This document shows, piece by piece, positions 26,462 through 26,754 of a DNA stretch of 64,000 nucleotides. A program made the translations under genes and the position numbers. The notes beneath the pieces were generated by a model, which did no database searches, was not told the DNA's origin, and saw nothing but the letters and a program-made list of their open reading frames with translations. Source of the DNA: Gammaproteobacteria bacterium (GTDB lineage: Bacteria; Pseudomonadota; Gammaproteobacteria; Pseudomonadales; JAUIET01); NCBI GenBank assembly GCA_030429735.1, contig JAUIET010000004.1, positions 372,001 to 436,000 on the forward strand, written 5' to 3'. Every line of letters begins with the position of its first letter. Positions within the stretch are counted from its first letter, which is position 1.

Positions 26462-26754
26462 CTAGGGCAGCTCTGAAAAATACCCGATGCCTCTGGCTTA
26501 CAGGCGAATCCAGCATTGAGGCGCGAGTTTGCAGGCATACTGGCCGTACGCCAAAAACTCGCAACGGAAAGGCTGGATTCGCCTGTAAGCCCCGGAGGGC
26601 GCGGCCTGTAGCGCACCGTGACTTCGTTGCGCTCCTCGCCAGGGACACCAACAGTAGGCGCTTTAGGCGACCAGCACTGGCCTTCGGAACGCGCCTCATC
26701 ACGGCACGCTACAGGCCGCGCAGAGGCATTGGGTATTTTTCAGAGCTGCCCTAG
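26462..26754 (+). mobile_element. Nested-palindrome MITE-like element
   Basis: The 293-base block is bounded by 34-base inverted arms (26462-26495 and 26721-26754) that differ at one base; each begins CTAGGGCAGCTCTG read inward. Inside lie two more long hairpins side by side: 26495-26514 pairs perfectly with 26572-26591 (20 bp), and 26599-26613 pairs with 26707-26721 (15 bp). Together they form a three-way junction. CTAG at each outer edge may be a 4-base target duplication, leaving a 285-base element with 30-base terminal repeats. No open frame fits it. It fills the gap between the convergent antiporter and YceI genes, and the right CTAG contains the YceI stop codon. The strand is arbitrary. 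A non-autonomous insertion element is the best reading. Confidence 0.8.

Follow-up and report, generated by a model that had tools for sequence, protein, structure and literature searches.

Bacterial MITEs are usually treated family by family, their bodies being regarded as leftovers, and several described systems resemble the locus reported here. With the MITEs of the IS5 family (NF033581 group, 4-bp YTAR duplications) it shares the type of end, a YTAR-like target duplication, the lack of coding capacity and the occurrence of many dispersed copies, while it differs by an inverted pair of covarying hairpin modules that is also found with other transposon ends. MITEs of the IS630/Tc1-mariner group are represented by elements such as L220, L221 and L229, which possess this same core within CTAGTACA... 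ends like those of the IS630-type insertion sequence L247, whereas the ends of the element described here are IS5-type. Integron attC sites resemble the module in that a single strand folds into a hairpin whose two stems are separated by an unpaired spacer; compared by description only, the module differs by the AAC in its unpaired loop and by its occurrence as inverted pairs inside DDE-type elements.

REP, BIME and REPIN sequences (PMC2817692, PMC2718517) are likewise palindromic units that are dispersed, intergenic and arranged in inverted pairs. The elements analysed here differ from these in being about 260 bp long, with terminal repeats, DDE-type duplications and a module of about 80–100 nt that contains two internal loops. 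The MITE-like repeats R0, R2, R6, R178 and R200 of P. fluorescens are flanked by inverted repeats and form hairpins, some of them sharing the ends of a resident insertion sequence, and R6 (177 bp, with 34-bp inverted repeats) has the size of the one-module forms described below; in the available part of that report they are described without a shared structural core, a comparison that is by description and not by sequence (PMC2718517). R6 and R200 could be relatives of the core-bearing elements. The QMITEs of Coxiella burnetii resemble our element in having terminal repeats around a core with a very stable predicted transcript fold (PMC5896051, PMC10969869), while QMITE2, as summarised in PMC10969869, differs in its 7–9 bp duplications and 23–29 bp terminal repeats. 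We regard IS5- and IS630-family MITEs as a known kind of element, whereas the core that they share is apparently undescribed in the open-access literature, in which searches by sequence strings and by concept found no paper describing it, and in Rfam. When compared to 4227 Rfam families, the element had no match at gathering score, matches to RF03976 and RF04149 (eukaryotic/archaeal microRNA hairpin models) were discarded as they scored far below it, and two sets of related loci (11 and 20) matched only through their unrelated neighbours 6S and t44.

The element is located in a 64-kb stretch of the host genome G000 (5.03 Mb, 97% complete assembly; G000:C17:372001-436000), which we call the window. 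Its outer arms (26462–26495 and 26721–26754) are 34 nt long with a single mismatch (97%), and they enclose two hairpins that lie side by side, one at 26495–26517/26569–26591 (23 nt, 96%, including a perfect 20-bp run) and one at 26599–26621/26699–26721 (23 nt, 91%, including a perfect 15-bp run), in agreement with the initial annotation. The same annotation had proposed a cloverleaf-like three-way junction, and its two hairpins are indeed there, but a third small hairpin (26589–26600) lies between them, so that a cloverleaf describes the fold better than a plain three-way junction does. The predicted DNA fold of the block is very stable (-112.8 kcal/mol, compared to -56.7 +/- 3.7 for shuffled sequences; z = -15) and was equalled by none of 100 shuffles. 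The window contains the terminal 21-mer at both ends of the block and nowhere else (chance expectation 0).

The previously assigned 285-base body, 30-base repeats and flanking CTAG were all recovered, with the border of the element moved by one base. Comparison with copies having CTTG, TTAA and CAAG duplications revealed that the 4-bp duplication takes the first G of "GGG", which places the element proper at 26466–26750 (285 bp, starting GGCAGCTCTGAAAAATACCC). It is enclosed by CTAG target-site duplications at 26462–26465 and 26751–26754, and its 30-bp terminal inverted repeats, which differ by one mismatch, are the IS5-type end GGCAGCTCTGAAAAATACCCGATGCCTCTG at 26466–26495 (plus strand) and its match at 26721–26750 (minus strand). 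On the left, a Na+/H+ exchanger-family transporter gene (PF00999; 25290–26459, plus strand) has its stop 2 bp before the CTAG; on the right, a convergent gene for a YceI-like protein (PF04264; 26751–27356, minus strand) uses the TAG of the duplication as its stop codon. The element itself is non-coding, as the small ORFs crossing it rely on flanking sequence into which they read, and a 22-bp indel shifts their frame.

There are about two dozen copies of the element in the host genome, among which BLASTN and pattern searches identified 18 of full length (285 or 263 bp), several short forms, truncated copies and solo ends. The full-length copies fall into two subfamilies, with GGCAGC and GGAAGC ends, respectively. 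In 16 of the 18 the 4-bp flanks are identical (14 CTAG, one CTTG, one TTAA), the remaining two being flanked by TTAG/CTAG, and the duplicated sequences overall are mostly CTAG, TTAG or TTAA (YTAR), with CTTG and CAAG as exceptions. The stop codon TAG of an adjacent gene often lies within the 4-bp target, as is the case for YceI, and the elements are often positioned at gene 3' ends; an apparent bias in gene orientation was seen by eye on a few copies. Two pairs of full copies are identical although they occupy different loci, and only 2 of 285 bases distinguish the window copy from L002, which indicates that the spread was recent. The sister species (G001) likewise has the antiporter and YceI genes next to each other in convergent orientation, but no element lies between them; the intergenic bases do not align, so that absence of the element is established for this gene pair but not a base-exact empty site with a single CTAG. 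With multiple copies, 4-bp duplications and a sister species that has no element at this site, the block is neither confined to one locus nor conserved in place, and its earlier interpretation as a transposed, non-autonomous element (MITE) is well supported.

Insertion sequences with ends of this type, which had been suggested as a further place to look, were not found in the host genome but are present in related ones (L151, L167, L265, L272). The end consensus GGNASCTCTGAWNAATWC is found in 32 of 390 genomes of the order, compared to one match in total for a reversed control pattern among the genomes listed. Complete insertion sequences were identified in L151 (753–1910, 1158 bp, TTAG on both sides) and L167 (667–1812, 1146 bp, TTAG duplication). 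Each encodes a 313-aa IS5-family transposase (NF033581; DDE_Tnp_1 and DUF772; PF01609, PF05598), scoring 321 and 338 bits against transpos_IS5_4 (NF033581; cut-off 140 bits; 6e-96 and 4e-101). L265 is a complete IS5-family insertion sequence with matching ends and a CTAG duplication, an insertion sequence with a CTAG duplication is present in G371, and the end of one in Bacterioplanes sanyensis is the same as the first bases of our element at 19 of 20 positions. The connection to IS5, which had initially been drawn from the fit of CTAG to YTAR, is thereby carried beyond inference.

Transposase searches found no matching enzyme in the host, in its sister G001 or in G002, and a closer query (P0001) had no match in the host genome. 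The only two DDE_Tnp_1 matches of the host were rejected as mobilisers, as one belongs to an element with unrelated ends (CACTGCTGTCCCACATTT) and the other is a fragment. The former is an insertion sequence (L075, 462–1734) that has these ends as 18-bp repeats and encodes a 383-aa DDE_Tnp_1 transposase. With no complete matching insertion sequence found in the host genome, the copies there are orphans, and with an assembly that is 97% complete the mobilising enzyme has to be deduced from relatives. We infer that an IS5-family transposase would cut and paste the 30-bp IS5-family-type ends in trans, and that insertion into YTAR sites would duplicate 4 bp.

We also considered whether the block might be of REP/BIME type, with a REP-associated tyrosine (Y1) transposase as its mobilising enzyme instead of a DDE transposase, as its inverted pairs of palindromic units resemble BIMEs (PMC2817692). 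This is extremely improbable in view of the long terminal repeats, the 4-bp target duplications and the DDE insertion sequences that share its ends, and the target duplications together with the matching insertion sequences exclude it as the main explanation.

Shorter forms of the element also occur. A 178-bp form that retains only hairpin 1 has the same junction at each of its three loci, and at two of these the duplications are perfect (CAAG and CTTG), and a 159-bp form with only hairpin 2 is present in both species of the genus, the copy in the sister species lying between two CTAG. One-module forms thus apparently move too, and a pair of modules is not strictly needed. The two lengths of the full copies are due to a 22-bp segment, CCAACAGTAGGCGCTTTAGGCG (26648–26669, plus strand), which lies in the apical loop of module 2 in 285-bp copies and is missing from 263-bp copies, independently of the two subfamilies. 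It is part of a string of about 25 bp (CACCAACAGTAGGCGCTTTTAGGCGA) for which several genomes have further occurrences in unrelated contexts (L080, L086, L089, L079, L081, L205), the one in L205 being at another place within the core; a micro-insertion by some mechanism is possible. At two host loci (L018, left flank, and L069, near 2847), IS5-type copies or ends abut TAGTGTCCCTTAACATAAGTTCGT-type ends, which resemble those of other core-bearing elements (L219), and this suggests a nested insertion at their CTAG. IS5-type elements of several genera share another internal piece, approximately GCGAACGACTGCATGGATGCAGGAGGTAGAGCAACGCAGGAGCAGTTGCCGAG, which either takes the place of one module or invades it (L157 1254–1616, L161 828–1085, L164 926–1183, L186 1198–1530).

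What had been annotated as a palindromic body is a conserved paired module, far wider in occurrence than the family itself and not bound to IS5-type ends. In other genera, the bodies of elements with the same ends are difficult to align, yet their folds are alike: a terminal stem and two long hairpins with a mini-hairpin between them, the elements being close to 263 bp in total. From either end inward, the module is composed of an outer stem, RAGGC, a 6-bp inner stem, an apical hairpin, the other side of the inner stem, AACRNN and the other side of the outer stem. Module 1 (26495–26591, plus strand) has GAGGC at 26518–26522 and AACGGA at 26563–26568 as the two sides of its internal loop. Module 2 (26599–26721) is its inverted copy with the sense on the minus strand, where the corresponding loop sides read GAGGC (26693–26697) and AACGAA (26623–26628). 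Both were assigned from the fold and from a covariance model of the module (R1), which matched module 1 at 26504–26582 on the plus strand (65.4 bits, E 5.7e-15) and module 2, including both of its loop sides, at 26711–26609 on the minus strand (56.4 bits, E 1.5e-12). These two were the only matches in the window up to E = 1.

Evidence for selection on the fold was obtained from an alignment of 24 modules that was made by sequence alone. All 20 stem pairs tested in it have two-sided changes across genera; 90.8% of the paired cells are complementary, compared to 52.5% after shuffling and at most 40% after sliding, and the covariation score is 1.01, compared to 0.25 and at most 0.22, respectively. 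RNAalifold recovered the same stems from this alignment, with 26 of 27 pairs covarying, and covariation at independent loci, which were themselves found with the model, was 0.96 vs 0.22. Stem mismatches, read in the sense of the module, are strongly asymmetric: G.T outnumbers A.C by 40 to 3 in the 24 modules and by 71 to 8 in 55 modules from other genomes, related sequences being counted in both sets (for the latter, binomial p = 1e-13 if cells are independent). A palindrome that is needed only as a double strand would not produce such an asymmetry, which therefore points to selection on one strand to fold. We conclude that selection acts on the module in its folded, single-stranded form, be it RNA or single-stranded DNA.

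It might be argued that the hairpins are an incidental feature of an ordinary IS5-derived MITE and that the body beyond the ends is not under selection, as palindromes tend to survive in MITEs. MITE transcripts commonly fold into stable stem-loops (review PMC10969869), and IS5-type ends do occur with other bodies. The IS5-type end has about 150 matches in G167, where the two elements that were inspected (L165 1382–1594 and L166 1139–1351, both 213 bp) possess a quite different single hairpin and no module, so that such ends can carry other cargo. However, the upkeep of a palindrome predicts neither the near-invariance of the unpaired internal-loop bases (RAGGC and AAC) in the 24 aligned modules while the stems change completely, nor the presence of the same module with unrelated ends across the class, nor a strand-specific mismatch asymmetry, and we consider incidental hairpins improbable. 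The block is very probably an IS5-type-ended MITE, the body of which is a conserved and selected core of paired hairpins. Far from being filler, this body would consist of a structured hairpin module in two inverted copies around a central UNCG/GNA mini-hairpin, each copy facing inward from its own end at a fixed distance.

The model R1 matched 88 of 274 genomes of Gammaproteobacteria (E <= 1e-3, with values down to 3e-18), often with 15 or more copies. In a sample of the whole phylum it matched 69 of 299 genomes, some of which belong to another class. At the loci inspected, the modules nearly always form an inverted pair with about 26 nt between the model ends. The terminal repeats around this core are of several kinds, namely IS5-type (L207, L211, L225 and others), CTAGT.., TTAACCCGG.. 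and AAGACAA.., and they finish inward in NCAG or CTCTG, usually 8–9 nt before the module. An insertion sequence of 1248 bp (L247, 1367–2614; terminal repeat CTAGTACATCGACCAGTTTATATTG) has HTH and DDE_3 frames as in the IS630/Tc1-mariner group (DDE_3 E 3.9e-28) and carries the same end as one CTAGT-type class of core-bearing elements; L251 is a decayed IS630-type copy, and by direct sequence comparison the terminal repeat of L220 matches that of L251 at 29 of 30 bases. As insertion sequences of IS5 type and of IS630 type (L247, L251) both share their ends with core-bearing elements, the core travels with at least two transposase families. Its occurrence with IS5-type, IS630-type and unassigned ends suggests that its contribution would be independent of any particular transposase. 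A 271-bp relative (CTAGs included) with GGCCTGTTGACGTTTC ends is present at L263 (1352–1622), and similar unannotated stretches were found on plasmids of Azotobacter chroococcum, Pseudomonas aeruginosa and Halomonas (NZ_CP010421.1, NZ_CP017294.1, NZ_CP040452.1). Searches for phage matches with the window element and the L263 element found none.

As the modules face inward, one copy folds correctly whichever DNA strand is considered and whichever way a transcript runs, a symmetry that suits an orientation-independent role in RNA as well as a subterminal role in DNA. The central mini-hairpin (26589–26600) reads GCCC-UCCG-GGGC on the minus strand and GCCC-CGGA-GGGC on the plus strand. A C(UNCG)G hairpin (N being T, G, C or A) is found at this position in 34 of 44 elements, compared to a mean of 1.1 after shuffling, and its opposite strand reads C(GNA)G. 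Stable loops are known to be formed by UNCG in RNA and by GNA in DNA alike, so that the central loop does not discriminate between the two.

One explanation sees the core as a structured RNA, or as an element for RNA processing, that would have a cellular or selfish function of its own and merely be carried by the ends of several transposon families. The UNCG loops, the tolerance of G.U, the covarying stems and conserved loops, the several end types around the core and its frequent location at gene 3' ends would all agree with this. On the other hand, the module is present on both strands, so that one of the two copies is antisense in any transcript, the element contains no internal promoter pattern and the block no intrinsic-terminator pattern, and Rfam has no matching family; we see this as a serious but minority possibility. 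For the lack of the terminator pattern, a role of the block as a terminator was also rejected.

Slightly less probable still is an action in DNA, where the subterminal hairpins would extrude (as a cruciform or from lagging-strand ssDNA) and be bound by the transposase or a host protein, raising the frequency of transposition. The same module at both ends, facing inward and separated by 8–9 nt from the inner edge of the terminal repeat, has a symmetry that suits transposition, and the GNA loops on the other strand and the very stable fold fit as well. This explanation has to contend with the apparent mobility of one-module forms and with a core that is shared by at least two transposase families, which makes a transposase-specific contact unlikely.

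Of these possibilities we favour, as inference, a folded-strand element that is recognised by a host factor, with RNA somewhat ahead of DNA. Such a factor would most likely bind the core in RNA or in exposed single-stranded DNA, and its binding may raise the spread of the element or lower its cost to neighbouring genes. A role at the level of the transcript is predicted tentatively, at a little short of even chances, while one at the level of DNA is rather unlikely.

One covarying, folded core is shared by elements that belong to at least two transposase families, and about one third of the sampled Gammaproteobacteria possess it. It is conceivable, if not quite probable, that the phylum-wide module is itself a functional element, selfish or serving the host, and not a by-product of MITE decay, and that unrelated DDE families (IS5, IS630 and others) have captured it repeatedly and are spreading it through the Pseudomonadota. 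If the core is functional, it represents an abundant and unexplained structured element. If it has no function, then transposon traffic alone is able to maintain an elaborate fold, which would matter for the discovery of structured RNAs by covariation.
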